From Sulfurospirillum diekertiae (lineage in GTDB: Bacteria; Campylobacterota; Campylobacteria; Campylobacterales; Sulfurospirillaceae), in NCBI RefSeq assembly GCF_011769985.2, contig NZ_CP039734.2:2170001-2234000 (forward strand): 64,000 nt of DNA, in the 5' to 3' direction. Made by a program: the position numbers and the translations under genes. Of the stretch, positions 18,052-32,255 are shown piece by piece. The notes beneath the pieces are model-generated. The model was not told where the DNA came from and did not search any database. It saw only the letters and a program-made list of their open reading frames with translations. Every line of letters begins with the position of its first letter. Within the stretch, counting starts at the first letter, position 1.

Positions 18052-18183
18052 GAATACTCCTTTACTTTTTTGGCATAGTATAAAAGGAGCTCATTACGAT
18101 ACGGTAACGAAGGAGAGCTTTTTATGTTACCATATTGTAATGATTTCCTATTAGAATGGGAGCAAATATTATAAGGAATACAA

Positions 18184-18852
18184 ATGCTTCAAAAGTATGA
18201 AGAAAGACTCAGTGAAATCAAAAAAATGCTCTTGGGTTTAGGATCAGATATTATCATGGCAAGTGAAAAAGCACTGAGTGGCATGGAAAGTTTAGATGTG
18301 ACTCGTTTTGAATCTGCTCGCACTTTACTCAAAAATGTGGAGACTCAAGCTAATGCGATTGATAATGAAATTGTTGTGACATTAGCGCTTTTTGGACCTG
18401 AAGCAAAAGACCTTCGTAAAATGGTTGCTTACCTTAAAATCACCAATGAACTTGTCAAAATTGCTGAAAATATCCGCAGTTTCAGTAAGCGTATGGCACT
18501 CCATCTTCAAGGCGATGTACCATTGATCTCACTACACGAATACTCAACACACCTTTGCAAAACCTCTGTTCAAGCCGTTACGTTAGCCCTTGGCACGATT
18601 GATATTGGCGATAAAGATACGCTTGAAGACACGTATCGAAAAGTCAAAGTGGAAGAGAGCAAAAGTGACGATCTTTACTCTATTTTGGAAAAAAATATCT
18701 TAAGTGACATTACAAAAACCATCGATCAATCCGCTGATTTTATTCAGATTTTAAGTACCATGCGCAAGTTAGAACGTATGGCAGATCGCAGTGTCAATAT
18801 CGTCCAACTGATGATTTTTTCACGTGTGGGTGGAGAGATGAAAACCTATTAA
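18184..18852 (+). CDS. phoU: Phosphate signalling protein PhoU
   Basis: A 222-residue, all-helical cytoplasmic protein with two PhoU repeats. The first has VETQANAIDNEIVVTLALFGPEAKDLRKMVAYLKITNELVK in split form (helix 2-3), and the second ends MRKLERMADRSVNIVQLMIF, which matches the metal-binding E..AD...N/I signature. PhoU links PstSCAB to the PhoR kinase and keeps the response off when phosphate is plentiful. It precedes the PhoB/PhoR-like pair, separated from it by two tandem repeat elements that start right after its stop. Confidence 0.93.
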   Translation: MLQKYEERLSEIKKMLLGLGSDIIMASEKALSGMESLDVTRFESARTLLKNVETQANAIDNEIVVTLALFGPEAKDLRKMVAYLKITNELVKIAENIRSFSKRMALHLQGDVPLISLHEYSTHLCKTSVQAVTLALGTIDIGDKDTLEDTYRKVKVEESKSDDLYSILEKNILSDITKTIDQSADFIQILSTMRKLERMADRSVNIVQLMIFSRVGGEMKTY

Positions 18853-18854
18853 AA

Positions 18855-18933
18855 TTCTGCCACGCATGTGGCAAGCTTGAGTGCCTTAGCGGCCAGCGTA
18901 GCGTGTTGAGCTTTCCTAACATGCGTATAAAAA
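18855..18933 (+). repeat. Two-hairpin intergenic element, copy A
   Basis: The element begins two bases past the phoU stop codon. Hairpin 1 is GCCAC-gcat-GTGGC. Hairpin 2 is GCGTGTT...AACATGC with one G-T pair. Between them lies AGTGCCTTAGCGGCCAGCG, shared with copy B apart from one base. It belongs with copies B and C (same orientation) and is related to D and E. Confidence 0.85.
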
Positions 18934-18940
18934 TGTAAAT

Positions 18941-19020
18941 TTCTGCCACGTACGTGGCAAGCTTTAGTGCCTTAGCGGCTAGCGTAGCGTGTTGAGCTTT
19001 GCCCAACGCGCGTGTTAAAG
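18941..19020 (+). repeat. Two-hairpin intergenic element, copy B
   Basis: A tandem copy of A, offset by 86 bases. Hairpin 1 is a perfect 14-bp palindrome GCCACGTACGTGGC; hairpin 2 is GCGTGTTG...CAACGCGC. Differences from copy A fall mostly in loops or keep pairing. It ends 12 bases before the PhoB-like start, next to its ribosome-binding site, so it lies in the mRNA leader of that gene. Confidence 0.85.
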
Positions 19021-19032
19021 ATCAGAGGGAAA

Positions 19033-19707
19033 ATGAAACAGACTATTTTGATTATTGAAGATGAGGAAGATCTTTTAGAACTTTTAGAATATCATTTACA
19101 AAAAGAAGGCTATGAAACACTCGGTTTTTTAAGCAGTAAAAATGTTGAAAAGTGCCTTCAAGAAGAGCCCATCGACCTCCTCATCGTTGATCGAAATTTA
19201 CCCGGAGTGGAAGGCAGTGAGTTTGTTGAGAGCCTACGCAAAAAAGGGTTCACACAAGCCGTTATTTTTGTCACAGCCAAAGACAGTGATACAAACATTG
19301 AAGAAGGTTTTGTGCGAGGAGGAGACGACTACGTTACTAAACCGTACAATATGAAAGAGCTTCTTTTACGCATCAAAGCGATTCTCTCTCGTACTGCACC
19401 CAAAAATGAAAAATCATTACTCTCTTACCGTGACCTCAGTCTCGATCTTGAAGCACACCGTTTACATGTAAACACCAAAGAGGTCGAACTCACCAAGCTT
19501 GAGTTTGACCTCTTACGCACCCTCATTGAAAACAAAAGTTCTGTTTTAAGCCGTGAATTTTTACTCGAGCATGTGTGGAAAAATGATGAATTTTTTCAAG
19601 ATAAAACAGTCAATGTCGCCATCAATCGTCTCAAACAAAAGATAGATCCCACCAAAGAAAAAGAGTACATCAAGTCTATTTGGGGAGTAGGATACACTTT
19701 ATGCTAA
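19033..19707 (+). CDS. phoB: PhoB-like response regulator
   Basis: A 224-residue OmpR/PhoB-family regulator. The receiver domain has acidic residues in IIEDEEDL, the phosphorylated Asp in LLIVDRNLPG, and Lys in VTKPYNMKEL. The winged-helix DNA-binding domain covers the last ~95 residues (LTKLEFDLLRTLIE, SREFLLEHVWKNDEFF, NVAINRLKQKI, SIWGVGY). The location after phoU and before a PhoR-like kinase makes phosphate response its most likely role. The ATG at 19033 after AGAGGGA is chosen over the GTG at 19012. The gene carries an exact motif copy (19461, read LHVN). Confidence 0.9.
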   Translation: MKQTILIIEDEEDLLELLEYHLQKEGYETLGFLSSKNVEKCLQEEPIDLLIVDRNLPGVEGSEFVESLRKKGFTQAVIFVTAKDSDTNIEEGFVRGGDDYVTKPYNMKELLLRIKAILSRTAPKNEKSLLSYRDLSLDLEAHRLHVNTKEVELTKLEFDLLRTLIENKSSVLSREFLLEHVWKNDEFFQDKTVNVAINRLKQKIDPTKEKEYIKSIWGVGYTLC

Positions 19708-21089
19708 TGCTCCACCAACACATTACACGAGCACTCCTTGCACTTTTTTTAACAACACTTTTGCTCTCAGGTGCGATTAGCTACTTCGCCATCAAAAGTG
19801 ACAATATCGATCACTATCGCAACAACCTTGAATCCCATATCAATATTTTAGTACGTGAATTACCTCAAATGAACGACCTTGATAGTTTTGCAAAACGCTT
19901 TCGAGAGAGTACCGATATTCGTTTTACACTTATTAACGAAGAGGGTATGGTCGTTACCGACAGTGACCATGACAGCGAAACGATGGATAACCACTCGCAT
20001 CGTGAAGAGATGATTAAAGCGGGCAAAGCCTCTTTTGGTTACTCTATCCGTTTCTCCGATACCATGAAAAGTAATTTTTTATACGTGGCACACCGCTTTA
20101 GTATGAATGATCATGTTTACTTTTTACGATTGGCAAAAAACATCGACACCATTATGCATAACTTCTATGCCTTATGGTTTAAAATCGCCATTATCTTTAC
20201 CGTGACAATTCTAATGGGATTGTATGGGGCGTATCGTTTTAGTCAAAAAATTCGACAAGAGATCGATAACATTGTCGAAAACCTTCAGCAAATTGCTGAC
20301 AAAGATTATAGAATTAAACTCTCTTCACACTTTAGTATGGAGTTTTTAGAAATTTCCAATTATCTCAAAAAGCTAGCCTCCAAACTGGAAAAAAGAGCCA
20401 AACAAAAACGAAAATACACCGCTAAGATCAAGCTGATTAGTCAACAACGTAGCGATGTTATCTCTGCCATTAGCCATGAGTTTAAAAACCCTATCGCTTC
20501 CATCATGGGATACGCGCAAACGCTTTTGGATGATCCCAATACCAATGCACAAATTAGAGAGCGCTTTTTAGGGAAAATTGTTCAAAATGGGCAGAAAATT
20601 TCCAATATGATCGACCGTTTAGCGCTAACAACCAAATTTGAAAATGGTGATTTTACAACCCAAAACACCACATTTGACCTAGTGAAGCTGACTCAAGAAA
20701 TTGCACAGAGTTTTAGAGAAAAACAGCCTACCCGAACCATTCATACAGAACTTCCTGCAATGTATATGGTATCGGCAGATCGTACGATGATAGAGCTTGT
20801 CATCACTAACCTCATCGACAATGCCCTCAAATATTCTGAAGAAAGCATTACCCTTGTTCTTGAGAATGACGCTTTACATGTAAAAGATCAAGGCATGGGT
20901 ATCAAAAGCGAAGAGATCGAAAAAGTGACTCAAAAATTCTACCGCTCGAATTCACACTCATGGGATAACTCCATGGGACTTGGACTTGCTCTTGTGAACT
21001 ACATTCTTAAACTTCACAACACTACACTAGAGATACAAAGTAGCTTAGGTGTAGGATCTGATTTTTCGTTTAAATTACCTTCAAACTGA
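19701..21089 (+). CDS. phoR: PhoR-like sensor histidine kinase
   Basis: A 462-residue membrane kinase. It has an N-terminal membrane segment (residues ~10-30), a periplasmic domain of ~120 residues with an INEEGMVVTDSDHD PAS/CHASE-like core, a second membrane segment near 155-178, a HAMP-like stretch and the kinase core: ISHEFKNPIASIMGYAQTL (phosphorylated His), NLIDNALKYSEE, KDQGMGI and MGLGLALVNYIL. It overlaps the regulator gene by 7 bases, so the pair is translationally coupled. The sensed signal is presumably PstB/PhoU status; the sizeable periplasmic domain also allows a direct signal. One motif copy lies inside (20873, LHVK). Confidence 0.88.
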   Translation: MLMLHQHITRALLALFLTTLLLSGAISYFAIKSDNIDHYRNNLESHINILVRELPQMNDLDSFAKRFRESTDIRFTLINEEGMVVTDSDHDSETMDNHSHREEMIKAGKASFGYSIRFSDTMKSNFLYVAHRFSMNDHVYFLRLAKNIDTIMHNFYALWFKIAIIFTVTILMGLYGAYRFSQKIRQEIDNIVENLQQIADKDYRIKLSSHFSMEFLEISNYLKKLASKLEKRAKQKRKYTAKIKLISQQRSDVISAISHEFKNPIASIMGYAQTLLDDPNTNAQIRERFLGKIVQNGQKISNMIDRLALTTKFENGDFTTQNTTFDLVKLTQEIAQSFREKQPTRTIHTELPAMYMVSADRTMIELVITNLIDNALKYSEESITLVLENDALHVKDQGMGIKSEEIEKVTQKFYRSNSHSWDNSMGLGLALVNYILKLHNTTLEIQSSLGVGSDFSFKLPSN

Positions 21090-21132
21090 TTTATTATAAG
21101 ATAAACCCATCAATTTCGTCACTTTTGTTAAA

Positions 21133-21214
21133 GTTTTGGCCAGGTATCTGGCAAGCTTTAGCGTCCCAATGGCAAACGTAGCGTTGCAGGCTTTGCCTAC
21201 AACGTGTATCAAAA
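21133..21214 (+). repeat. Two-hairpin intergenic element, copy C
   Basis: Third copy in the same orientation. Hairpin 1 is GCCAG-gtat-CTGGC, in which the closing pair has swapped from C-G in copies A and B to G-C with pairing kept. Hairpin 2 is CGTTGcAGGC-ttt-GCCTaCAACG. The central GGCAAGCTTTAG matches copy B. It starts about 44 bases after the phoR stop and ends just before the thioesterase ribosome-binding site. Confidence 0.8.
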
Positions 21215-21230
21215 TAAAAAAGGGCTCAAC

Positions 21231-21650
21231 ATGTACAATATGGGTGAACCGCGCATCAAAATTGTTGCGATGCCAAAAGATACTAACCCCTCTGGTAATA
21301 TCTTTGGAGGCTGGATTATGTCGCAAATGGACATTGCAGGAAGCCTTGCTGTACGCGATCTCAACGTTGGACGCGTAGTAACGGTTGCCGTACAATCTAT
21401 GGAGTTTAGAGAAGCCGTTAAAGTAGGTGACGTTCTGAGTTGCTATGCTAAGATCATGAAGGTGGGGAAAACATCCCTTACCGTGCGTATTGAAGTCAAT
21501 GCCGAACGCTCCATTGAAGGGGCACACCGTTGTTTACATGTAACGAGTGCCGTGATTACCTATGTCAACGTTTCGTCGGATGGTAAAAAAATGCCCATTC
21601 CTTATACCGATAACGAACTCATAGCGCTCGGTATTGAAGTAAACGCATAA
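21231..21650 (+). CDS. yciA: YciA-type acyl-CoA thioesterase
   Basis: A 139-residue hot-dog-fold thioesterase. The signature PKDTNPSGNIFGGWIMSQMDIAG holds the conserved N, G and D residues of the YciA/acyl-CoA hydrolase group (split: NPSGNIFGGW and MDIAG), and VQSMEFREAVKVGDVL follows. It hydrolyses acyl-CoAs in the cytoplasm, probably as a hexamer. The ATG at 21231 is chosen because AAAAAGGG precedes it; the earlier GTG at 21204 lies inside repeat copy C. A near motif copy (21533) is read LHVT. The stop codon sits in the loop of a hairpin. Confidence 0.92.
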   Translation: MYNMGEPRIKIVAMPKDTNPSGNIFGGWIMSQMDIAGSLAVRDLNVGRVVTVAVQSMEFREAVKVGDVLSCYAKIMKVGKTSLTVRIEVNAERSIEGAHRCLHVTSAVITYVNVSSDGKKMPIPYTDNELIALGIEVNA

Positions 21651-21660
21651 TGCGTTTACT
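21638..21660. terminator. Hairpin around the yciA stop codon
   Basis: AGTAAACGCA and TGCGTTTACT form a perfect 10-bp stem whose 3-base loop is the TAA stop codon of yciA. It also covers the end of the convergent gene at 21656. The T-run is weak, so it may act as a two-way terminator or an RNA 3' end stabiliser. Confidence 0.65.
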
Positions 21661-22231
21661 TCTCAAGAACAAATTGACTCAGTGGGGTATCTGCGACCAT
21701 TAAATCCTCGATTACCCCTTTACCCTCTAAAATTCTAAGCTTTGCTCTCACCGTTATTCCGCTATTTTGTCTTAAAACTTTTTCAGCTTTTGGTGCTAAT
21801 TCCTCACGCATGTAAAAACGATCAAATGGTAATGAAAAAGAGACAAGTCTTGAGAGATCTTCTTTTTGAGTCATACCTTGATAGAGAGGATGAACATTCA
21901 CTTCCAAAAAATTTCCACTCAGTGGCTTTGTAAAGCGTATCTCTTTGATGCTATCCTTTTGATCACTGTGTTCAAAAATGGCATACGCTTTAGAATGTTC
22001 TCTCATAGTCTCATCCTCAGCGAGAGGTGCTTTTGTAGCCGTATCAAAACGAAGTGTAACATAGCGTCCCCGAAATGGATCATACGGATCAAGTGGCGAT
22101 ACTTTCAAATAAAAGACTTCACCTTCTTTGAGAATGCGCTCATAACTCATAATCTGAAAAACAATGACGCCAAGTTGTACTACACACAGAAGCCCAAAAC
22201 AAATCCACGAGAGGAGTTTCATATTTTTCAT
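21656..22231 (-). CDS. GDYXXLXY domain membrane-anchored protein
   Basis: A 191-residue protein with one N-terminal membrane segment (LLSWICFGLLCVVQLGVIVF) and a periplasmic or external domain. The segment DPYDPFRGRYVTLRF matches the GDYXXLXY domain, here with R replacing D. These proteins are nearly always next to DUF2157 genes, as here: its start overlaps the stop of the upstream DUF2157 gene by 4 bases. The function of the pair is unknown. Confidence 0.82.
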   Translation of the reverse strand: MKNMKLLSWICFGLLCVVQLGVIVFQIMSYERILKEGEVFYLKVSPLDPYDPFRGRYVTLRFDTATKAPLAEDETMREHSKAYAIFEHSDQKDSIKEIRFTKPLSGNFLEVNVHPLYQGMTQKEDLSRLVSFSLPFDRFYMREELAPKAEKVLRQNSGITVRAKLRILEGKGVIEDLMVADTPLSQFVLEK

Positions 22232-23577
22232 ACGCTTGCCCTCAACTTTCGTCGTACAAAAGCATTGATCACTAAAAACAATACGCCTGTAACAATAAAT
22301 GCCACACCTTTAGCTACCAAATCAAACTTAGCATCCATGAAATGAATCCAAACCGTTAATGCGATTAAAATCATCCCTTGATTGATCAGTCCTAAACGCC
22401 CCTCTTTGGCACCGCATACAATCATCCACGAAGCCCCCAAGAGTAAAGAAGCATTGATAAAGAGCATTGAAGCCAAAGCAGATACTTCGTGATGACTTTG
22501 AAGCTGTGTGTATATCAAGAAAATGACAGGGGTCAGTATGACAAGCACTTCGGCGGGAACCTTTTTAACCTTTTGTAAAAATAGCACTAACAGTGCTACA
22601 AAAAGCACGATTAGACTGATTGCCAGCCAACCCATCTGGCTAGGTGCTTGAATCATTGAATCCGCCCCATCCAGCCACATTCGTGCTCGAAATGAAACCT
22701 GAGTCAGTACCAAGAACAAAGCTCCAAATTTTCCGATGCGTTCAAAAGGACGTTGCCATGTTTTTTCACCATGCGAAAGATACAGCATTCCTGCCATGTA
22801 ATACAGTGCAAAGAAAAGTGCAAAATAATTCACCATGCTACGTAAATGAGGCATAGCACGCGTTTGCGTTAAGATTTCAACAAGAAAAACAAGAAAAAGT
22901 GAGATCGCAAGTCCCCAACTAAGGAGCAAGGTACCATTGGCATTTTTTGCTGTTCTCAGTTGCCACACATAGTAGCCAAGCCAACAAAGCATAATTCCTA
23001 ATAGTGCCCATGTGCTGAGAAAAGAGTCTGTATTCATTTCCAGCAATGTGCTTAAGTCACTTCGATGACTGATCCACACAACTGTCCACAAAAAGATCTG
23101 TAAAAAAGCGGCACCCGAAGAAGGAAGCAACCATGCAATACCAAAGGAGAGTAAGAGCCAAATACTCAGAAAATCAAACACCGTACCGCCCAAATGGTAT
23201 GTCTGTCCAATGATCGCCAACGATGCGCCCATCATCAAAAACCAAAAAATGCCACTCCCTTCTAGTAACGCTGTGTTGTTTGGCTTGTAGCGCTTCACAA
23301 AAAAACTAAACGTTTGTGCTCCCACTAAAAGAACAATGGCGAACAGTGTACGCTCCAGATGTCCCAACGCATCCCAATTGTAGGCTAAAAGGGAGATAAT
23401 GCCCAATCCTACAAGCGCAAATCCTAGCAGACTAAACGCGATACCTGAAGAGCGAGAAGACGTTTTTTCACCCACATAACGACGCAAAAGTACCTGTGCG
23501 CCTTCATCGGTAACAATACCCTCTTGAACCCAAGAAGGCAGCTCTTTCTCAAGCCATTGGTAAGTTTCTTTGCTCAT
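22228..23577 (-). CDS. DUF2157 polytopic membrane protein
   Basis: A 449-residue inner-membrane protein. The soluble N terminus (SKETYQWLEKELPSWVQEGIVTDEGAQVLLRRY) is the DUF2157 domain; the rest holds about 12-14 hydrophobic segments in pairs with Trp-rich loops. No transport motif or catalytic residue is evident. It forms an overlapping pair with the GDYXXLXY gene. The ribosome-binding site AAAGG is part of the TTTACATGTAAA copy at 23585, only a few bases before the ATG. Confidence 0.82.
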   Translation of the reverse strand: MSKETYQWLEKELPSWVQEGIVTDEGAQVLLRRYVGEKTSSRSSGIAFSLLGFALVGLGIISLLAYNWDALGHLERTLFAIVLLVGAQTFSFFVKRYKPNNTALLEGSGIFWFLMMGASLAIIGQTYHLGGTVFDFLSIWLLLSFGIAWLLPSSGAAFLQIFLWTVVWISHRSDLSTLLEMNTDSFLSTWALLGIMLCWLGYYVWQLRTAKNANGTLLLSWGLAISLFLVFLVEILTQTRAMPHLRSMVNYFALFFALYYMAGMLYLSHGEKTWQRPFERIGKFGALFLVLTQVSFRARMWLDGADSMIQAPSQMGWLAISLIVLFVALLVLFLQKVKKVPAEVLVILTPVIFLIYTQLQSHHEVSALASMLFINASLLLGASWMIVCGAKEGRLGLINQGMILIALTVWIHFMDAKFDLVAKGVAFIVTGVLFLVINAFVRRKLRASV

Positions 23578-23598
23578 AACTACCTTTACATGTAAAGA

Positions 23599-23928
23599 TC
23601 AATCAACGATAAAAAGCTTAGCTCCACTTGGTGTATACGAACGATGTGCCATCGTCTCATCTGCCACTTCGTAACTCATACCCGCTTGAAGAACGTGAAC
23701 TTCTCCATTTTTAAGCTCCGTATAAAGTTCACCCTCTAAACACAAAAGAATATGCCCTTTTTGACACCAGTGATCGGCTTTATACCCTGCGGTGTATTCA
23801 ACCATACGCACGCGAATACTTCCGCACTGTTTCGTACGCCAAAAGGCACTTCCACTCTCTCCTTTGTGTTCCACTTTTTCAACATTTTCCCAATCGGTTG
23901 TGCCAAAAGGGATGTTGGTCATATTCAC
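23599..23928 (-). CDS. DHCW-motif cupin protein
   Basis: A 109-residue single-domain cupin. YKADHWCQKGHILLCLEGEL shows the DHCW-type metal-binding motif, with HILLCLEGEL as the first cupin motif and a later DETMAHRSYTP. The family has no settled function. Its start overlaps the stop of the upstream HxlR regulator gene by 4 bases, so it is in an operon with that regulator. Confidence 0.85.
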   Translation of the reverse strand: MNMTNIPFGTTDWENVEKVEHKGESGSAFWRTKQCGSIRVRMVEYTAGYKADHWCQKGHILLCLEGELYTELKNGEVHVLQAGMSYEVADETMAHRSYTPSGAKLFIVD

Positions 23929-24272
23929 TTTACATCTCTTTTACAGCCATATTTTGCGGCATAAACTTCGCCAAATGCGTGCATAGAGTCAAGCACTTTT
24001 TTAAGCTCTAAACCGATAGGGCTAAGCGCATACTCCACACGAGGAGGCACTTCAGCAAAAACTGTTCGCTCAATAATATGATCGGCTTCTAACTCTTTAA
24101 GTTTTTGTGTCACTGTTTTTTGTGTCACTTGTGAAAAAGCTTCACAAATGTCTTTAAATCTTTTTTGTCCGCCTAATAATATATAAACGATAAATATTTT
24201 ACTTTTGTCGTTTATAATGTCCAATGTCAATGCTACAGGGCATTGCAACTCTTTTACGTCTGTTGTTATCAT
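23925..24272 (-). CDS. HxlR family transcriptional regulator
   Basis: A 115-residue winged-helix regulator of the HxlR type. The diagnostic CPVALTLDIINDKSKIFIVYIL has the conserved Cys-Pro start, here with DKSK replacing the usual G-K-W (split in two parts: CPVALTLDIIND, SKIFIVYIL). KRFKDICEAF, QKTVTQKLKELE and PRVEYALSPIG complete the domain. The conserved Cys suggests redox or electrophile sensing. The ATG at 24272 is chosen over the GTG at 24281, with AAGAGGTG upstream. It is divergent from an NAD(P)H oxidoreductase gene, its likely target. Confidence 0.9.
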   Translation of the reverse strand: MITTDVKELQCPVALTLDIINDKSKIFIVYILLGGQKRFKDICEAFSQVTQKTVTQKLKELEADHIIERTVFAEVPPRVEYALSPIGLELKKVLDSMHAFGEVYAAKYGCKRDVK

Positions 24273-24396
24273 TGTTGTCACCTCTTAATTTGTATTATAC
24301 CATAATCACCATTTTTGTTCTTTACTTACTTTTTATTCTATAATAAACTTTAAGGTGTTAAGAGGTATATTTTTCTAAATTTTTAGGAGAGATACT
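24273..24396. promoter_or_regulatory. Divergent promoter region, hxlR-like / oxidoreductase
   Basis: TATAAT boxes face both ways: 24339-24344 on the plus strand for the oxidoreductase, and the complement of 24294-24299 for the regulator. ACCTCTTAA at 24280 and TTAAGAGGT at 24359 are inverted 9-mers that could be paired operator half-sites, though the left one doubles as the regulator's ribosome-binding site. Confidence 0.45.
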
Positions 24397-24960
24397 ATGA
24401 AAAAAACATTGATTATTTTTGCACACCCCAACATCACGGAGTCCAAAGTCAACAAAGCACTTCTTGAGAGCATCAAAAATGAGCCAAATATCACCGTACA
24501 TGATCTTTATGCAACGTATAAAACCGTAGAGGCTATTGATGTTGCTAAAGAGCAAGCCCTTTTAGTCCAATATGATCGCATCATTTTCCAATTTCCACTC
24601 TACTGGTATAGCACTCCTGCTATGTTAAAAGAGTGGCAAGATAAAGTTTTGGGATATGGTTTTGCATATGGCCCAGAGGGTAGCAAACTGGCAGGAAAAG
24701 AGAGCAAAATCATTGTGAGTGTGGGTTCACCTGAGTACGCTTACCAAGCAGGTGCGTACAATAACTTTACGCTCAGTGAATACTTAAGACCGCTTTACTC
24801 AACCATTGTCTTTACAGGGATGGAATTTAAAGGGATTTTCGCATCTTATGGGGCGATGAAACTCACCGCAGAAGCGCTTGCAAAGGATGTTAAAACCTAC
24901 CAAACCATCTTGCATACAGATGACTGGAGCACTTCCCTTTTCAAATTTTTAGCAGAGTAA
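24397..24960 (+). CDS. NAD(P)H-dependent oxidoreductase (KefF/quinone reductase type)
   Basis: A 187-residue flavodoxin-like-fold enzyme. The start LIIFAHPNITESKVNKAL binds the flavin phosphate; FQFPLYWYSTPAMLKEWQDKV is typical of the KefF/NQO1/MdaB group. It is expected to reduce quinones or other electrophiles with NAD(P)H in the cytoplasm. It is divergent from the HxlR regulator, a common arrangement for quinone- or aldehyde-responsive detoxification. Confidence 0.9.
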   Translation: MKKTLIIFAHPNITESKVNKALLESIKNEPNITVHDLYATYKTVEAIDVAKEQALLVQYDRIIFQFPLYWYSTPAMLKEWQDKVLGYGFAYGPEGSKLAGKESKIIVSVGSPEYAYQAGAYNNFTLSEYLRPLYSTIVFTGMEFKGIFASYGAMKLTAEALAKDVKTYQTILHTDDWSTSLFKFLAE

Positions 24961-24963
24961 ACC

Positions 24964-24983
24964 AAAAGGGGCATGCCCCTTTT
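24964..24983. terminator. Bidirectional terminator palindrome
   Basis: AAAAGGGGCATGCCCCTTTT is a perfect 20-bp palindrome between two convergent genes, 3 bases past one stop and touching the other. GC-rich stem with A and T flanks gives a terminator in each direction. Confidence 0.8.
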
Positions 24984-26697
24984 ATGCCTCATCTTTGGGC
25001 AATACAATTGTGATAAACAGCCCACCTCGCTCATTGGTTGCATTGATGGAGCCTTGCATCGTCTGTTCAATAATCTGTTTGGACATATAAAGCCCTCCAC
25101 CATTGCCACGTGTCGGATCTTTTGTGGTAAAAAATGGATCAAAAACATGAGGAAGTTGTTCATCCGTCACACCACCTCCATTGTCTGAAACTTCAATAAT
25201 GACATAGTGCTCTTGCTCATACCCCTTAATGGTAATTTCACCATGAGCAATCTGCCGCTCAATAAGCGCCTCTTTTGCATTGTGAATCAGCACTAAAAGG
25301 ACATGCCCCAGCTCTTTCTTAAAAGTATTCAGCGCAATCTCTTGCGGACAATCCACACAAAATAAAATATCTCGATTGGCAATGCCACCATCGTTCATCC
25401 GAATACTCTCTTCAATACATTTCGATACTGAAAACAGAACTTTTCCCGTGTCTGCTAAAAAGAAATCTTTAAAATCATCAATCGTTGATGACATACTTTG
25501 AATTAAACTTCTTAGTTTTACAATCTCGTCTTCAAGGTTTTGAGGCGTGAGTTTTTTCATTTGGCTATCAAGATAAATCTTGCTAATAACCACACTAATG
25601 GTATTAAGCGGCTGTCTCCATTGATGCGCGATATTGCCCAACATCTCTCCTAAGGCTGCCAGTTTAGCTTGTTGAAAGAGCATTCGATCTTTAAGTCTGC
25701 TGTTCGCAACTTCTTCATCGATCTTTTTTTCCAAGTTTTTATTGAGATATTCTAGCTCTTCTTTTGTATCAAAGGACTCGCACAGTGCTGTTGAAATAGC
25801 ACCATATTCATTCTCTTTGAGCAAATATTTACGTAAAGGCTCTTTATTTTTAGCATTGAGCGCAACTGTGATGTCTCGCAAAGGAAAAGAGATAAATTTT
25901 GCAATCAAAAGGGCAAAAACGATCATCAAAATAACCGTATGCACAATGGTCAGCTTCAACTCTTTTTTACCATAGCGATCCAACACTTCACTCATTCGAT
26001 TATGAATATGTAAATAGAGTGTGCCTACTTTCTCGCCTTGAATTCCACTTAAAGGAATTTCATGGACGGTGTTATAGTCATCGTCATTTTGAATTGCACT
26101 TAAACGTGCCTCTGCAATTCCATAGCCACTAAGCTCTTCCAAAAATGCTTCATCCCAATGCTTTACAATCAGAACAAACCCTTTCGCTAAAGAGTTTTGA
26201 GCAATAGTCTCATCAATACGATGAATCGGCGCAACATAGCATTCTATAATTCCTTGCTGCGGTACTTTGGCATAGAAGTGTAAGAGCCCCGCATTGGCAG
26301 TATCAAACACCGCAAAAGGGATAAGCGTTTCAATCGCCTCTAAAAAAGGTTTATTGGATTCGGAAAAGAGGATTTTTTTGTTCTGATCCAAGATATACAT
26401 TCCATCGATACCAAATTGTACAATGCTTGCTCTAAGGTTATCTTCAGCCCATTGCGGATCTTTCGTATCGGTAAAATTGGCAAGGTCGTTCCACGCAGCA
26501 TAATCAAGTGCTTGTTTTTTAAAAGAGTCTGATTTTAAAATTAAAAGTTGTTTGAACCCTTGAACGATCTCTTGGGCATTCTGCTTAGCCATTGCATTGA
26601 CATTGTCGCGTTCATTCACCCAAATGAAAGCTTCAACACCAATAGCCACTAAAAAAGTTAACATTGTCAAGAAGAAAAAAGAGGACTTCACACTCAT
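24982..26697 (-). CDS. Sensor histidine kinase with CHASE4-like domain
   Basis: A 571-residue membrane kinase. A membrane segment at residues ~5-25 is followed by a ~220-residue periplasmic region whose KKQALDYAAWNDLANF and DGMYILDQNKKILF are typical of CHASE4; a second membrane segment follows near 250, then a HAMP-like linker, a coiled coil, and an atypical kinase core: GNIAHQWRQPLNTISVVISK, LIHNAKEALI, DNGGGV and GNGGGLYMSKQI. AHQWRQPL is the H-box style common in Campylobacterota stand-alone kinases. No response regulator is adjacent. The Met at 26697 after AAGGAG is chosen over the one at 26736. Confidence 0.87.
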   Translation of the reverse strand: MSVKSSFFFLTMLTFLVAIGVEAFIWVNERDNVNAMAKQNAQEIVQGFKQLLILKSDSFKKQALDYAAWNDLANFTDTKDPQWAEDNLRASIVQFGIDGMYILDQNKKILFSESNKPFLEAIETLIPFAVFDTANAGLLHFYAKVPQQGIIECYVAPIHRIDETIAQNSLAKGFVLIVKHWDEAFLEELSGYGIAEARLSAIQNDDDYNTVHEIPLSGIQGEKVGTLYLHIHNRMSEVLDRYGKKELKLTIVHTVILMIVFALLIAKFISFPLRDITVALNAKNKEPLRKYLLKENEYGAISTALCESFDTKEELEYLNKNLEKKIDEEVANSRLKDRMLFQQAKLAALGEMLGNIAHQWRQPLNTISVVISKIYLDSQMKKLTPQNLEDEIVKLRSLIQSMSSTIDDFKDFFLADTGKVLFSVSKCIEESIRMNDGGIANRDILFCVDCPQEIALNTFKKELGHVLLVLIHNAKEALIERQIAHGEITIKGYEQEHYVIIEVSDNGGGVTDEQLPHVFDPFFTTKDPTRGNGGGLYMSKQIIEQTMQGSINATNERGGLFITIVLPKDEA

Positions 26698-26755
26698 CGC
26701 GGCACTCCTTTTTAATATGCAAATAATGCATAACATGCTTTACATGTAAAGGGCG

Positions 26756-27436
26756 TCACCTACCTTTCGCGTAGGTCTCCCATCCTGCTTTTCGTAGCAC
26801 ACATGCAGGACATTCGCCACAACCATAGCCCCATGCATGCTTTTTATCGTGGACACCATTATAGCATGTATGTGACTCATCGATGACGAGTTCTAAGACA
26901 CCCTCTTGGTGTGAAAGTTCAAAGGTTTCAGCTTTTGTGAGGTGCATAAGCGGGTAATGGAAAGTGATGTTGGCTTCGCTTCCAAGATTAAGGGCAAGTT
27001 CAAGCGCCTTTACAAAAGGCTCTCTACAATCAGGATACCCTGAATAATCGGTCTGATTGACTCCAATGATGATATGCTCAATACCTTGTTTTTGCGCAAA
27101 TGCGTGCGCAAGTGTAAAAAAGATCGCGTTGCGATTGGGAACAAAGGAAGCAGGGAGATTGGTATGCGTTCTATGATGTGCGCCAATATCTTGCGTACCA
27201 TCAATTAAAGCCGAATCATTCAGTTGTGAAAAGGCATCTAAGCTGAGCAGTGTATTTTTTACATGTAACGCTTTGGCGATCTTCTCAGCTTGCGCAATTT
27301 CCACGCGATGCTTTTGGCCATAATCAAACGTAATGCTTTCAACACTATCAAAACGATTCTTTGCCCAACCCAGACAAGTCGTACTGTCTTGTCCACCACT
27401 AAAGACCACTAATGCTTTGGAAGCAATTTTTCCCAT
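26756..27436 (-). CDS. queC: 7-cyano-7-deazaguanine synthase QueC
   Basis: A 226-residue PP-loop ATPase that turns 7-carboxy-7-deazaguanine into preQ0 in queuosine synthesis. The ATP loop reads VFSGGQDSTTCLGWA; FDYGQKH follows, and the zinc site is C...CGECPACVLRK near the end. The start is the ATG at 27436, which shares one base with the queE stop codon, so the two are translationally coupled. A near motif copy inside (27258) is read LHVK. Confidence 0.96.
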   Translation of the reverse strand: MGKIASKALVVFSGGQDSTTCLGWAKNRFDSVESITFDYGQKHRVEIAQAEKIAKALHVKNTLLSLDAFSQLNDSALIDGTQDIGAHHRTHTNLPASFVPNRNAIFFTLAHAFAQKQGIEHIIIGVNQTDYSGYPDCREPFVKALELALNLGSEANITFHYPLMHLTKAETFELSHQEGVLELVIDESHTCYNGVHDKKHAWGYGCGECPACVLRKAGWETYAKGR

Positions 27437-28014
27437 TATTCCACTCCTAAAAACTTGTGCAACTGCACACTCAAGATAAATTGTGGATGTTCTTTGACAA
27501 ACTCCACACAAAAAGCAACATTTTCTTTGTTGGGTCGATCCATCTCATTTTGAGGCTGAATGAAGATGGGTTTGTAGCTTGAAAATTCAAGTATTTTTTC
27601 AACTGCAGACTCTTTGCTCACCACAAATTTAATCTCATCGTAGCCATATTTTTCAATTTTATCCCAATCTTTTGGGCTATAGGTCACCCAGTTAGCACTC
27701 GCAATGTTGGAAAAATTATAGCCATTCGTTTCGACAGAAACAGCATACATATACGCTTGCAAATAATCAATAAAACCATTAAGATTATAAATACTCGGCT
27801 CGCCACCTGTAATGATGACATTCATGGCAGGATAAGGCTTAATACGTGTTAACACCTCATCAAAACTAAGACTTTCATATTCTCCTTTGTGCAAGAACTC
27901 ATCACAAAAGGAACAGGTGAGATTGCACCCATACAGTCGAATAAAAATAGAAGGAACGCCCACATGTGCACCTTCTCCTTGAATAGAATAAAATATATCG
28001 ACGACTTTTAGCAT
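27436..28014 (-). CDS. queE: 7-carboxy-7-deazaguanine synthase QueE
   Basis: A 192-residue short radical-SAM enzyme that converts carboxytetrahydropterin to 7-carboxy-7-deazaguanine. It shows the start FYSIQGEGAHVGVPSIFIRL, the cluster-binding CNLTCSFCD (CX3CX2C) and ITGGEPSIY for SAM binding. Length is normal for compact QueE. It heads a queE-queC operon. A TATAAT box and an inverted repeat lie upstream. Confidence 0.96.
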   Translation of the reverse strand: MLKVVDIFYSIQGEGAHVGVPSIFIRLYGCNLTCSFCDEFLHKGEYESLSFDEVLTRIKPYPAMNVIITGGEPSIYNLNGFIDYLQAYMYAVSVETNGYNFSNIASANWVTYSPKDWDKIEKYGYDEIKFVVSKESAVEKILEFSSYKPIFIQPQNEMDRPNKENVAFCVEFVKEHPQFILSVQLHKFLGVE

Positions 28015-28029
28015 GCCACCCTTTTCCTT

Positions 28030-28051
28030 AATAATGTTTCAAAACATTATT
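28030..28051 (-). promoter_or_regulatory. Inverted repeat in the queE leader
   Basis: AATAATGTTT and AAACATTATT are perfect 10-bp arms 2 bases apart, 16 bases before the queE start and about 15 bases downstream of the predicted -10 box. It could be a repressor operator or an RNA hairpin near the ribosome-binding site. No known regulator consensus was recognised. Confidence 0.5.
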
Positions 28052-28065
28052 ATCTATTGTGTAAC

Positions 28066-28071
28066 ATTATA
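28066..28071 (-). promoter_or_regulatory. -10 box for queE-queC
   Basis: On the minus strand this reads TATAAT, about 50 bases before queE. No clear -35 box is seen, as is usual for sigma-70 promoters in Campylobacterota. Confidence 0.5.
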
Positions 28072-28097
28072 ATATGAAATGGATTAGAAGATTATTT

Positions 28098-28133
28098 GAA
28101 AAAGTGCCTCTTGTTTTAAGATTAACAAGAGGC
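28098..28133 (-). terminator. Rho-independent terminator for the 49-residue gene
   Basis: On the minus strand GCCTCTTGTT and AACAAGAGGC make a perfect 10-bp stem with an 8-base loop, followed by ACTTTTT. It lies 24 bases after the stop of the small gene at 28157 and ends the flavoprotein/small-protein transcript. Confidence 0.85.
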
Positions 28134-28156
28134 GTGTAGGTTTACATGTAAGCTTT

Positions 28157-28306
28157 TTAGTGATGTGATTTGATAATTAGAATGGTCATTCGGATGTTGA
28201 TCATAATAAATTTTATCACTTGCCAAATCACACAGGTTCTTCTAAAAAGTGTAAACTTTGAAGGAATCGGTGTAAAAGCATTTTGTGAATACGGTGTTAA
28301 TTTCAT
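28157..28306 (-). CDS. 49-residue small protein downstream of the SQR-like gene
   Basis: A 49-codon reading frame starting ATG with AAGGAG 7 bases upstream. The product opens MKLTPYSQNAFTPIPSKFTL, continues with a basic FRRT, then a hydrophobic, Ile-rich stretch (IWQVIKFIMINIRMTILII) and ends KSHH. It looks like a small membrane-associated protein with a basic N-terminal flank. It follows the SQR-like flavoprotein gene on the same strand across a repeat element (copy D) and is closed by a strong terminator, so it is probably expressed from that transcript. I do not recognise a named family. It might anchor or assist the flavoprotein; that is inference. Confidence 0.72.
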   Translation of the reverse strand: MKLTPYSQNAFTPIPSKFTLFRRTCVIWQVIKFIMINIRMTILIIKSHH

Positions 28307-28335
28307 ACTATTCTCCTTTGTTTTCATTTTTTGTC

Positions 28336-28478
28336 ACGCCTTTAGAGCAAAGCTCTAAAGACTACGTTAACACTGAGTTTTGCTTGGCGCAATGCCCGTG
28401 CATCTTCGATGCTTTTAAGTTCTTATGGAACTTTGTCTCGCACTCAAAGCAAAGCTTCTCATGCTACGCTAACGCACT
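28336..28478 (-). repeat. Multi-hairpin post-stop element, copy D
   Basis: Starting directly at the stop codon of the SQR-like gene, it contains the module TTAGCGTAGC...AAGCTTTGC seen in copies A-C, a GTTC/GAAC hairpin, a GCATC-gaa-GATGC hairpin, and a perfect 9-bp stem CTTTAGAGC/GCTCTAAAG beside GTTAACGTAG. The middle part matches copy E closely. Confidence 0.75.
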
Positions 28479-29942
28479 TTATTCTGGGATAATGGACCAA
28501 AAAGGTTTCATTTTGGCTTTCCAGATAAATGCATGGTGTAAAAGATGCTTAACCCAATGGGCAGCAAGACCAATTTCACCAAAAGTACCGCCAAAATCTC
28601 TACCATAATCAGGATATTTTTTATAATTCGGAATAATCGGATACATGGTCATCGCAACAGCGGTTCCTGAGAACAACCCTTTACCAGCACTCGCAACACA
28701 CGCTGCACCCATTTCCGCCATACACGCGGTATGGGTTGGTGCACTCGCACCCCCTATCATATCAACGATGCTTGCAGCAACCGCTTTTCCCATCATCGCA
28801 CTAGGCATTCCTGTTCGTGGAGGTGTTGGATTGATCGGTGTGCCATTAGGAGATTTCATCGGTTTAGAGATGATATGCGGTGGTGCAAAGGCAATACCTG
28901 CCGCAAAAATATTTTTATATTTAGGATTTTGACATGTTTTTGGCCAATCAGACGCATCCCATGTTTCATACGGAGCTGTTGCTTTTGAGTAATCCCCATC
29001 AACAAACATAAAACCACCCGCATTGAACATAGAAGAGGTAATGTCTTCTCCATTTTTATCGTATGCTTTCATACCAGCCCCTGCAAATGGAGGAATGAGC
29101 ATAGAAAAGTCATACGTCTCTTCTTTCATTTCGCCTGCAAGATTTTCGTAATGGACTTTGTCTTTTTCAACTTTATTGACATGCGCTCTCGTGATCCATT
29201 TGACATCACGCTCGGCGTATAAAGATTCTGCAAAGACTTTGCCACTGGTGATGTAACCACCCATTTTAAGGTGCATACCGCCTACACCAAAGTCACCGAG
29301 TTCATATTCATTAGAGATATAAGTGATGGTCGCTTTGTCACGAACACCCTCAGCACGCAAGCGATGATCGACGTTAAACGTGTACTCAAACGCTGCACCT
29401 TGGCAGGTACACATTCCATGACCTGTACCAATCAAAATCTTTTTCTCTTCACCTTTTTTTAATGCTTCGATAATCTTTTCAAGCTCATCTGCGGCATGTT
29501 TAGCATGTGAAGCCGTACAAACGGAAACAGTAAAGCCATTGTCCGGTCCTAAACCTTCTGTTGCTGCAAAATTGAGCCGTGGTCCTGTGGCATTGATGAG
29601 ATAATCATACGTGATTTCCTCTTTTTCGCCCTCTTTATTTGCACCAGTGTGTTCTATGGTAACAAAATTTTTACTATTTTCCACTGTGCCCTCAGGGTGA
29701 ATAGTAAGTGCTTTTGCTTGAATATAGGTAATGCCCGCTTTTGCATAAATGGGTGCCAAATCAAACAGAACTTCCTCTTGATCCATTTGACCAACACCTA
29801 CCCAAATGTTCGATGGAATCCAATTCCATTTGCTATTAGGGGTTACAACCACAACTTCATGAGTTCGATTGAGCCATTTTCGCGCAAACTGTGCGGCGGT
29901 ATGCCCTGCAACACCACCACCCAAAATAACAACTTTAGCCAT
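28479..29942 (-). CDS. FAD-dependent oxidoreductase, sulfide:quinone oxidoreductase family
   Basis: A 487-residue flavoprotein. The FAD site is VVILGGGVAGHTAAQFA; INATGPRLNF and FAAGIAFAPPH are the further nucleotide-binding marks of the SQR/FCSD family. Cysteines in TVSVCTASH, GMCTCQGAAFEY, WPKTCQNPKY and the TACMAEMGAACVAS segment are candidates for the redox-active pair. The C terminus (AAHWVKHLLHHAFIWKAKM) is amphipathic and could dock to the membrane. Expected role: oxidation of sulfide or a sulfur compound with electrons passed to quinone. The SQR subtype is not certain, and a role in reverse electron flow or another dehydrogenase is possible. The ATG at 29942 after AAGGATA is used. Confidence 0.82.
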   Translation of the reverse strand: MAKVVILGGGVAGHTAAQFARKWLNRTHEVVVVTPNSKWNWIPSNIWVGVGQMDQEEVLFDLAPIYAKAGITYIQAKALTIHPEGTVENSKNFVTIEHTGANKEGEKEEITYDYLINATGPRLNFAATEGLGPDNGFTVSVCTASHAKHAADELEKIIEALKKGEEKKILIGTGHGMCTCQGAAFEYTFNVDHRLRAEGVRDKATITYISNEYELGDFGVGGMHLKMGGYITSGKVFAESLYAERDVKWITRAHVNKVEKDKVHYENLAGEMKEETYDFSMLIPPFAGAGMKAYDKNGEDITSSMFNAGGFMFVDGDYSKATAPYETWDASDWPKTCQNPKYKNIFAAGIAFAPPHIISKPMKSPNGTPINPTPPRTGMPSAMMGKAVAASIVDMIGGASAPTHTACMAEMGAACVASAGKGLFSGTAVAMTMYPIIPNYKKYPDYGRDFGGTFGEIGLAAHWVKHLLHHAFIWKAKMKPFWSIIPE

Positions 29943-30117
29943 CAATTATCCTTATAAAAAATGTAAAACTTTTTGATTGTATAACAAGAAAAGATAAAAT
30001 AAAATTGTACTATTACAAATCCGAAGTTATTTAAGGTTTAAAAAAGGTTTACTTTTTTTGACAGCTATATTTTGGTATCATTCCTAAGATATTTTTCGAT
30101 GTAAAAGGGTATAACCA

Positions 30118-30657
30118 ATGTTATGGCAAATCAGTAAAGAATTCGATTTTTGTTATGGGCACCGCGTTTGGTCACAAGAGCTGGATGCTGAATTTTCCCT
30201 CAGTGGGTGCTTAGCGTGCCGTCACTTGCATGGACATCAAGGCAAAATTATCGTTTTTTTACAAAGTAATGAACTCAAAAATGGTATGGTGACAGACTTT
30301 CATCATCTGAACTGGTTTAAACTCTTTTTAGACAATACCTTAGATCATAAATTCATCATTGACATTCACGACCCACTCTTTGCGACCTTATTGCCTCATT
30401 TTGCTGACAAACAGAATTTACTTTCCCATGAAAGTGGTTATAAAACACCCGATCTCTCTTTTATAGCGCATGAGCCAAATTATCTTGTAGAAATGTATGA
30501 GGGGTATATTATCGTTGATTTTGTGCCAACCAGTGAGAACATCTCAACGTGGCTGCTTCAAATCATTGCGAAAAAGATGAGTCGCTTGGGAGTGGAAGTC
30601 TCGCATGTAGAATTTTTAGAAACCCCAAAAAGCCGAAGTATCGTTTACAACCATTAG
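30118..30657 (+). CDS. queD: 6-carboxytetrahydropterin synthase QueD
   Basis: A 179-residue member of the QueD/6-pyruvoyl-tetrahydropterin synthase family. The zinc histidines lie in CYGHRVW and HLHGHQG; the catalytic Cys is in GCLACRHLHGH; DFHHLNW, LDHKF and VPTSENIS complete the family pattern. It makes the queuosine precursor from dihydroneopterin triphosphate. It is longer than bacterial QueD (about 120 residues) through an insert between LDHKF and PTSEN. It is separated from queE-queC by the SQR-like gene and transcribed the other way. Confidence 0.92.
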   Translation: MLWQISKEFDFCYGHRVWSQELDAEFSLSGCLACRHLHGHQGKIIVFLQSNELKNGMVTDFHHLNWFKLFLDNTLDHKFIIDIHDPLFATLLPHFADKQNLLSHESGYKTPDLSFIAHEPNYLVEMYEGYIIVDFVPTSENISTWLLQIIAKKMSRLGVEVSHVEFLETPKSRSIVYNH

Positions 30658-30658
30658 C

Positions 30659-30758
30659 GTTCTACCCGAACGCTGAACGTAGCCTCTAGAGCAAAGCTCT
30701 AAAGACTACGTTAACACTGGGTTTTCTTTGAAGTCAAGCCCGCGCACTTTCAGTGCTT
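30659..30758 (-). repeat. Multi-hairpin post-stop element, copy E
   Basis: Directly follows the dUTPase stop on the minus strand. It holds nested stems: outer AACGTAG/CTACGTT around inner TAGAGC-aaa-GCTCTA, a separate AGCGTTC/GAACGCT hairpin, and GCACT-gaa-AGTGC near the stop. The last corresponds to GCATC-gaa-GATGC in copy D with pairing preserved. About 50 bases match copy D well. Confidence 0.75.
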
Positions 30759-31457
30759 TTAAGCCTTTGGATAGACCTTTTCGAGTTTTTTATAGAGCGC
30801 ATCCACAGTGGGAGCAGACTCGCCATGAAGCAATGAAAGCATCACTTCGTTATCTTCTTTACCATTCCACACTTTGATGTAATGTCCCTCTTTGTAGCCA
30901 TGATCTTGGCGGAATTGGTTAAGCACGTTTTTAGCCACATAGAATTTGTACAGCACTTTAAGGTTGATGCCACATTTTCTTGAAAGTGTAAAATACTCTT
31001 TCAACAGTCCATCAAAAAGATCCATTTCAAAACCTGTCGTATCGTGAATGATGCTCTCGATGTCATTGACCAGTTCCATTGGTACAGCCATACCGATAGA
31101 GAGTGGTTCTTTGGTAAATGCTTCAAATCCCTGAACATCCAACACATCTAAAACAAGTTGTTCAATATCGCCTCTGTTGTTCGTTTTATAATCTTCCAAT
31201 AACAGGCTCATAATAAAATGCCAAATATCAACGATTTCAACGGTGACATTGTCCCAATCGGTCGGTTTATTAATGTTTTTCCAATGTTTCCAACTAAAAC
31301 TATCAATGAGTTCCGCACACTCCATATAAATACATCGCTTCCAGTTAATCATGCGGTTATGTTTGGTATAGCCATTTTCCCAGCCAATACCATTGGTTTC
31401 GTCGTTCAGTTTTTGCTGTAACGCAAACATTTGCGTTAAATAATCTTTACTTGTCAT
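30759..31457 (-). CDS. dut: Dimeric (all-alpha) dUTP diphosphatase
   Basis: A 232-residue all-helical dUTPase of the dimeric type found in Campylobacter. The metal-binding pattern reads YMECAELIDSFSWKHWK and later EIVDIWHFIMS, with KYF-like ends absent and GHYIKVWNGKEDNEVML near the C terminus. It hydrolyses dUTP (and dUDP) to dUMP, keeping uracil out of DNA. It lies 15 bases after the patatin-like gene, last in the phoH operon. The stop codon merges into repeat copy E. Confidence 0.93.
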   Translation of the reverse strand: MTSKDYLTQMFALQQKLNDETNGIGWENGYTKHNRMINWKRCIYMECAELIDSFSWKHWKNINKPTDWDNVTVEIVDIWHFIMSLLLEDYKTNNRGDIEQLVLDVLDVQGFEAFTKEPLSIGMAVPMELVNDIESIIHDTTGFEMDLFDGLLKEYFTLSRKCGINLKVLYKFYVAKNVLNQFRQDHGYKEGHYIKVWNGKEDNEVMLSLLHGESAPTVDALYKKLEKVYPKA

Positions 31458-31472
31458 TCTATTCCTTCGATC

Positions 31473-32255
31473 TTAAAAGGGTTTCATTATACTTTTTTGC
31501 GCCATAAAAGTCAAAATGGATTCACTGCCTTTGCGATATCCAAGCTCAAAACAAGCATCTATTTGTCTAAAAGTAAACAATCCAAAATCATTGAGTGTGG
31601 GATCGCTAATGCACAGATCACTCTGCTCTATCTGCTGTTTCGATGAAGCCAAAATGGAGAGATAAATAGCGCGCTCAAAACTGGAAAAAAAGTTACTTTT
31701 TTGCTTTACATGTAAAGGAAACAAATTAACACTCACCACAGGATAAGGAAGCTCTAAAAGTGGTGCTACAGGCAGGTTATCCATAAAACCACCATCAATA
31801 AGCGTGTAATTATCATAAGTGATGGGGCGAAAGATAGGAATGAGCGCGGAGCTTGCGATGGCAAGGTTAATTGTATTGCCATGGCTAAAGCGGACGATTT
31901 CGCCATGAGGGAGATCAACACATGTCATAAAAGTAGGAATGCTCATCTGCTCTAAACGCTCAATAGGGGCGATCTCTTTCAGAATAGCTGCTTTTTCATT
32001 GATGCGAAGAAGTCCCTTGCGAAAATAGTTAAAATGAAACACTTTGCGAAAGGCTCTGCTTTTAACGATACGCAACAGATCAAAAGCACTGACACCTGAA
32101 CCCACACCGGCGGCAATCACCGAACCAATGCTACAGCCTGAAACAGCGGCTATCTCCACATTGTTTCGCTCCATTGCAGCAATGACACCCAGATGAAATG
32201 CCCCCCTTGCCGCACCGCCCGAAAGGGCTAAGGATATTTTCAATGTCCCAGCCAT
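31473..32255 (-). CDS. Patatin-like phospholipase
   Basis: A 260-residue cytoplasmic lipase-fold protein with the patatin oxyanion loop GGAARGAFHLGV, nucleophile serine in SGCSIGSV (GxSxG), and the dyad Asp in IDGGFMDNLPV. It likely cleaves acyl esters of phospholipids. Its start lies inside the preceding phosphoesterase gene (16-base overlap), giving tight coupling. An exact motif copy (31705) is read LHVK. Confidence 0.92.
   Translation of the reverse strand: MAGTLKISLALSGGAARGAFHLGVIAAMERNNVEIAAVSGCSIGSVIAAGVGSGVSAFDLLRIVKSRAFRKVFHFNYFRKGLLRINEKAAILKEIAPIERLEQMSIPTFMTCVDLPHGEIVRFSHGNTINLAIASSALIPIFRPITYDNYTLIDGGFMDNLPVAPLLELPYPVVSVNLFPLHVKQKSNFFSSFERAIYLSILASSKQQIEQSDLCISDPTLNDFGLFTFRQIDACFELGYRKGSESILTFMAQKSIMKPF

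Follow-up and report, generated by a model that had tools for sequence, protein, structure and literature searches.

Short mobile DNA repeats with a conserved structured core in sulfur-cycling Campylobacterota

A question raised by this Sulfurospirillum locus is what kind of element the short, foldable repeats between its genes represent; namely, whether they are structured parts of mRNAs, single-stranded DNA repeats of the REP type or small elements spread by a transposase. Sequence inspection of the window (the whole stretch of 64,000 nt that was analysed) located five copies, A–E, at the positions reported in a preliminary description, which had also quoted their stems correctly: GCCAC/GTGGC in A and B, GCCAG/CTGGC in C, GCATC/GATGC in D and GCACT/AGTGC in E. 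Nucleotide searches of the same genome with A plus B and with D returned 33 and 23 places, respectively, and alignment of these places yielded two related families, type 1 (A, B and C) and type 2 (D and E), with the covariance models R1 and R2. The copies, together with a truncated sixth copy and two hairpins, are listed below.

18855–18934, + strand: copy A, type 1; adjoins the phoU stop codon (R1 match 18857–18934, 77.6 bits)
18941–19021, + strand: copy B, type 1; stops about 13 nt short of the response-regulator start codon (R1 match 18943–19021, 93.8 bits)
21134–21215, + strand: copy C, type 1; in the interval that follows the phoR-like kinase gene, before the next co-directional gene (R1 match 21137–21215, 84 bits)
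28329–28415, − strand: copy D, type 2 core; in the interval from the SQR-like gene to the next gene (R2, 99.8 bits)
28419–28431, − strand: GTTCCATAAGAAC hairpin, 3' of the truncated sixth copy; by sequence comparison, similar to the hairpin that terminates full-length type 2 on the 3' side
28431–28480, − strand: sixth copy, truncated and consisting mainly of the 3' module common to both types; lies between D and the SQR-like gene, adjoining the stop codon of the latter (R2, 37.8 bits over 28431–28516)
30656–30674, − strand: AGCGTTCGGGTAGAACGCT hairpin, then TA; from comparison with full-length type-2 copies, probably the 3' terminal hairpin of copy E
30672–30759, − strand: copy E, type 2 core; adjoins the dUTPase-like gene (R2, 68.7 bits)

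Copies A and B form a direct pair, with A first, and B is the top-scoring type-1 copy genome-wide under R1. In their own genome, the copies reach model E-values of about 1e-16 to 1e-20 (A–D) and 1e-10 (E). All had been described as sharing a GAGCTTTGC-like module. They do share a 3' module, but the word GAGCTTTGC alone has 23 matches in the window against 20 expected, which is chance level; the case therefore depends on the full elements, and these form two families, not one.

Two families and their distribution

Type 1, about 75 nt in length, has the form T-CTGCC-NN-loop-NN-GGCAAGCTTTAGYGCC-NNAGYGGC-NARCG-TAG-stem-loop-stem-CGTNNWAAA. Type 2, about 87 nt in length, has the form AAAGCACC-loop-GGTGC-G-GGGC-stem-GCCGA-stem-AC-NCAGYGTTARCGTAG-stem-TTT-stem-CGTGTCAAGA, and the 3' hairpin module RCG-TAG-stem-TTT-stem-CGT is common to both. 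The models identify many more copies genome-wide, as expected of a family: about 36 clear type-1 and about 29 clear type-2 copies in the genome of the window (G000, 2.78 Mb).

Among the matches listed for an exact type-1 pattern in GTDB contigs, almost all are from Campylobacterota (Sulfurospirillum, Sulfuricurvum, Sulfurimonas and other Campylobacterales). By model, type 1 has 7–58 matches in each of the 22 other congeneric genomes (22/22), almost none in the remaining genomes of the same family and some in a few other families; at an E-value of 1e-6 it is present in 25 of 249 genomes of the phylum. Type 2 occurs in all 24 Sulfurospirillum genomes, with 2–50 copies each, and of the remaining loci searched just two contain it (L157 and L164), which are labelled Sulfurospirillaceae or Campylobacteraceae. 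A phage origin was rejected, as the type-1 pattern was not found in viral contigs, and type 1 had no match on plasmids. No Rfam family matched the elements at the gathering threshold, and a literature search that covered few subscription journals returned no description or annotation of the repeat family, in keeping with the first impression that the copies match no known element.

Structural constraint

The conserved part folds as two or three hairpins with conserved linkers, and GTAG stands directly 5' of a variable, fully paired 3' stem. Type-1 covariation was scored on 84 distinct sequences from other genomes, fetched by means of the linker sequence and not the stems. In this set 97.0% of cells are paired (74.7% when shuffled), both sides are altered in 13 of 17 pairs and the covariation score is 0.618, compared with 0.199 for shuffled and at most 0.132 for slid alignments. 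For type 2, 92.2% of cells are paired, 14 of 23 pairs change on both sides and the score is 0.377 compared with 0.205. The core is conserved, with compensatory changes across genera.

The G-U and A-C cells are also informative as to the strand. Overall, 85 G-U cells compare with 14 A-C cells, in an alignment fitted to the model that may slightly favour G-U, and the counts are 32 and 3 in copies that are antisense to both neighbouring genes. The large excess of G-U over A-C indicates that one strand is constrained, and the same bias in the antisense copies argues that the mRNA of the neighbours is not the source of the constraint. Selection on structure had been proposed from the compensatory stems of the five copies; with many more copies aligned, sequence comparison supports such selection on the elements as a single strand. 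Chance similarity or ordinary terminators, to which the chance-level frequency of the short word might point, are an exceedingly improbable explanation, refuted by model E-values of about 1e-20, by the covariation and by the distribution of hundreds of copies over three families.

Position relative to genes

Gene context in G000 was taken from a simple home-made gene caller, so that calls are approximate, and clustered copies were counted as well. Of 69 copies, 45 run in the direction of the upstream neighbour and 49 in that of the downstream neighbour; in tandem intervals, 39 copies are sense and 14 antisense, and a further 6 and 10 copies lie in convergent and divergent intervals, respectively. 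The 3' end of sense copies is typically 15–25 nt ahead of the next start codon. No copy is nested within a called gene; overlaps with a gene end, of at most about 35 nt, occur in some type-2 copies. In the rest of the phylum, tandem sense and antisense copies number 24:27 overall, and the ratio is 9:1 for Sulfurospirillaceae as against 15:26 for the other genera. A location after stop codons is thus true of the five copies and does not hold as a general rule. Nor was there support for the idea that sense-oriented copies favour gene 3' ends, and an RNA specific to 3' ends is ruled out by the upstream and downstream fractions (45/69 versus 49/69) together with the 15:26 ratio.

Genes adjacent to elements in other genera match element-adjacent genes here in 15 of 114 cases, compared with 19 of 320 for more distant genes. 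Shared neighbours include dnaN–gyrB, acs, actP, guaB and apt, frequently in the reverse orientation, and the operon junctions occupied include phoU–phoR, dnaN–gyrB, acs, guaB and nif. No promoter-like sequence is conserved upstream of the elements. Clustering of neighbouring proteins revealed no recurrent transposase beside the elements, only housekeeping and metabolic genes, and there is no clear replication-strand bias by replichore (24:17 for type 1 and 16:13 for type 2, assuming an origin near base 1).

These data bear on whether the copies are structured RNA elements in mRNAs, such as intercistronic processing or stabilizing hairpins between a stop codon and a ribosome-binding site, that were spread by transposition and kept by selection. 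The strong covariation with its G-U excess, the lack of copies nested in genes, the 39 to 14 sense excess here with 3' ends often about 15–25 nt before a start, the retention of the core where terminal repeats are gone and the roughly twofold sharing of neighbours between genera would all fit this explanation. We nevertheless consider it rather unlikely: the orientation preference is absent outside Sulfurospirillum, the one-strand constraint is equal in copies antisense to both neighbours, no upstream promoter-like sequence is conserved, and deletion or absence is frequent between strains of one species.

Two local arrangements were also observed. A 4.3-kb region (L236; G000:C1:2679278–2683592) holds six element copies and includes a tandem duplication, with three in G080 versus two. 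The palindrome TTTACATGTAAA(G), for example at 19461–19472, 23584–23597 and 26738–26751, recurs genome-wide within and between genes, often beside elements.

Variation between strains and species

The copies are mobile, as their presence, orientation and type vary at one site between strains and species. At the phoU–phoR site, eight species have no element, G000 carries a pair of type-1 copies, a type-2 copy in the opposite orientation is found in G009 and G014, and G008 and G004 have a remnant. Copy C is absent from the same-species strain G080 and present in G015, G013, G009 and G018, with different stem sequences in the last three; in G001 it is truncated. An orthologue of copy D was found in G012, and the site of copy E is without an element in G013, G009 and G008. 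Comparison of G000 with G080 at 36 type-1 loci shows that 26 keep the element, 4 are without it and 6 have deletions of more than 10 nt. Such frequent deletions argue against an essential role at each site. For one copy found only in G080, the G000 site is cleanly empty, and the insert starts with TA-GACTTCTTTTGAAGTC.

At an intergenic locus (279219–279294 of G000:C1, compared with L330), flanked by sequences about 98% identical between the two strains, both strains have the same rare SL2 variant and their SL3 stems are wholly different, each fully paired; the difference would reflect either one-step stem replacement or recombination. Comparison of positions 18000–31500 of the window with G015, which belongs to another species, revealed stretches of 99–100% identity within an average of about 93%, a pattern that suggests recent recombination between species.

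Transposon-like ends

Full-length type-2 copies span about 145–150 bp and have terminal inverted repeats, GASTTCTTGCARAACTC, flanked by TA. In G008 and its relative G019, the 5' hairpin is GACTTCTTGCAAAACTCATTTTGCAAGAAG and the 3' hairpin GAGTTCTGCAAGAACTC, with TA outside; because both ends read GASTTCTTGCARAAC inward from the outside, they are terminal inverted repeats. Among 35 type-2 copies in these two genomes, the 5' end was found in 24, the 3' end in 23 and both ends in 18, and most full-length copies have TA on both sides. At the one site where a type-2 copy (G012) could be compared with an empty site (G013), TA on each side of the element replaces a single TA, and three extra bases are present at the right end. 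For type 1, the 3' terminal repeat occurs in 5 of 41 copies in G000, and ends are found in a few Sulfurimonas copies, for example in L121 and L171. A search for type-1 target duplication was negative, with a mean longest shared word of 4.43, equal to the permuted value.

Ends of this kind also occur on an insertion sequence. A remnant in a Campylobacterales locus (L180) starts with TA-GACTTCTTTCAAAACTC, followed by an open frame; the 54-amino-acid peptide had no match in Pfam or NCBIfam and led to a two-frame transposase on the plasmid pSulSP of another Sulfurospirillum strain. This transposase has HTH_Tnp_4 and DDE_Tnp_4 domains, from which we take the pSulSP insertion sequence to be IS5-like. 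It is TA-flanked and has perfect 17-bp ends, GACATCTTGCAAAACTC (GACWTCTTGCAAAACTC). The type-2 left end, GACTTCTTGCAAAACTC, is identical to GACATCTTGCAAAACTC at 16 of 17 positions, and the right end differs more. On these sequence similarities, the best description of full-length type 2 would be a MITE derived from an insertion sequence of this kind. Separately, at 6605–6709 of L180, a MITE with GACTTCTTGCATAACC ends encloses CGTC-type repeats (CGTCATTGCGA...GAAGCAATC), an unrelated repeat with like ends.

Y1 transposases

A resemblance to REP/BIME elements had been noted, with the suggestion that a RAYT-type transposase be sought. The copies would then be REP-type single-stranded DNA elements recognized by a RAYT or another Y1 (HUH) enzyme, with the GTAG before the 3' hairpin as the guide tetranucleotide. 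The one-strand constraint and the position of GTAG immediately 5' of a variable, fully paired stem are compatible with this, and a RAYT-like Y1 gene is present in nearly all Sulfurospirillum genomes (NCBIfam score of 63.6 bits, below the cut-off of 80). However, none of 31 Y1-transposase loci has a type-1 copy at a distance of about 1.5 kb or less; the Y1 gene of G000 is bordered by other palindromes, GGGGTCAGGGCTAAA; and G001 and G059 have elements with no Y1 match, whereas many relatives have Y1 without elements. The units, which are 75–87 nt long and combine conserved linkers with two or three hairpins, are not palindromes of 20–40 nt, and their ends are TA-flanked inverted repeats of the IS5-like kind. 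REP/BIME elements served by a RAYT are ruled out by the distances to Y1 loci, the flanks of the Y1 gene and the co-occurrence pattern, and we regard recognition by any Y1 enzyme as distinctly improbable.

The RAYT-like gene itself (1385–2245 of L031; G000:C1, about 315,250–316,110) lies 5' of a gyrase-subunit-like gene and has the palindrome GGGGTCAGGGCTAAA / TTTAGCCCTGACCCC, a distinct repeat, on both sides. A second weak Y1 match, at 2506438, is a saccharopine dehydrogenase-like gene.

Interpretation

The copies belong to a hitherto undescribed family of short, mobile DNA repeats, represented by dozens of copies in sulfur-cycling Campylobacterota. With a probability of roughly 0.6, they are non-autonomous MITE-type elements whose structured core is unusually well conserved; an IS5-like DDE transposase would move them in trans, and their ends would later be lost. 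The elements are too short for a transposase gene, and such an enzyme would move them into TA sites; between close-packed genes, the terminal hairpins would often be lost and the core would stay longer. Counted against this are the lack of recognizable terminal repeats in most type-1 copies, the lack of a detected type-1 target duplication, the presence of the insertion sequence on a plasmid of another strain and the end differences (1 of 17 on the left, more on the right). As most type-1 copies are without these ends, type 1 may have a separate way of moving; it would be either an older relative mostly stripped of its ends or an independently mobile unit.

A pure MITE requires no conserved, folded interior, so that the transposase alone does not explain the conservation of the core; its persistence in copies that have lost the ends suggests that the core is under selection. 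The constraint would act on the top strand of the element itself as a single strand (RNA or single-stranded DNA), and not through the mRNA of its neighbours. We tentatively suggest that the core might be a functional structured module of either kind, carried as cargo of the transposon ends and doing the same job at dozens of intergenic sites across three Campylobacterota families.

Bacterial MITEs are usually regarded as pairs of ends with no meaningful content between them. In this family, conservation lies in the interior, which changes in a compensatory manner across genera and outlives the ends; whether useful structured modules are carried from operon to operon by small mobile elements thereby becomes testable. 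The host organisms are used for dechlorination and sulfur cycling, and the family is found at many of their operon junctions.

Comparison with known systems

The elements share with GTAG-tagged REPs of the RAYT system (PMC3733652) a dispersed, extragenic distribution in both orientations and a stem-loop after GTAG with a 3-nt loop. Unlike those REPs, they are longer, with two or three hairpins and conserved linkers, and they have no RAYT association and no paired BIME organization that we could see. With respect to CGTC-tagged REPs (PMC3733652), the CGTC-like repeats in L180 are enclosed by GACTTCTTGCATAAC inverted repeats of like kind, and the core sequence is unrelated. Covarying stems and conserved unpaired linkers are also features of bacterial structured RNA motifs in Rfam, from which the elements differ in having no Rfam match and dozens of copies per genome. 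Although MITEs of IS5-like insertion sequences (HTH_Tnp_4 plus DDE_Tnp_4) differ in that the conserved multi-hairpin core is absent from the insertion sequence and most type-1 copies are without ends, the elements resemble them in being short, non-coding and intergenic, in their presence or absence among strains, and in having terminal inverted repeats nearly those of an insertion sequence of the same genus, with TA on both sides.
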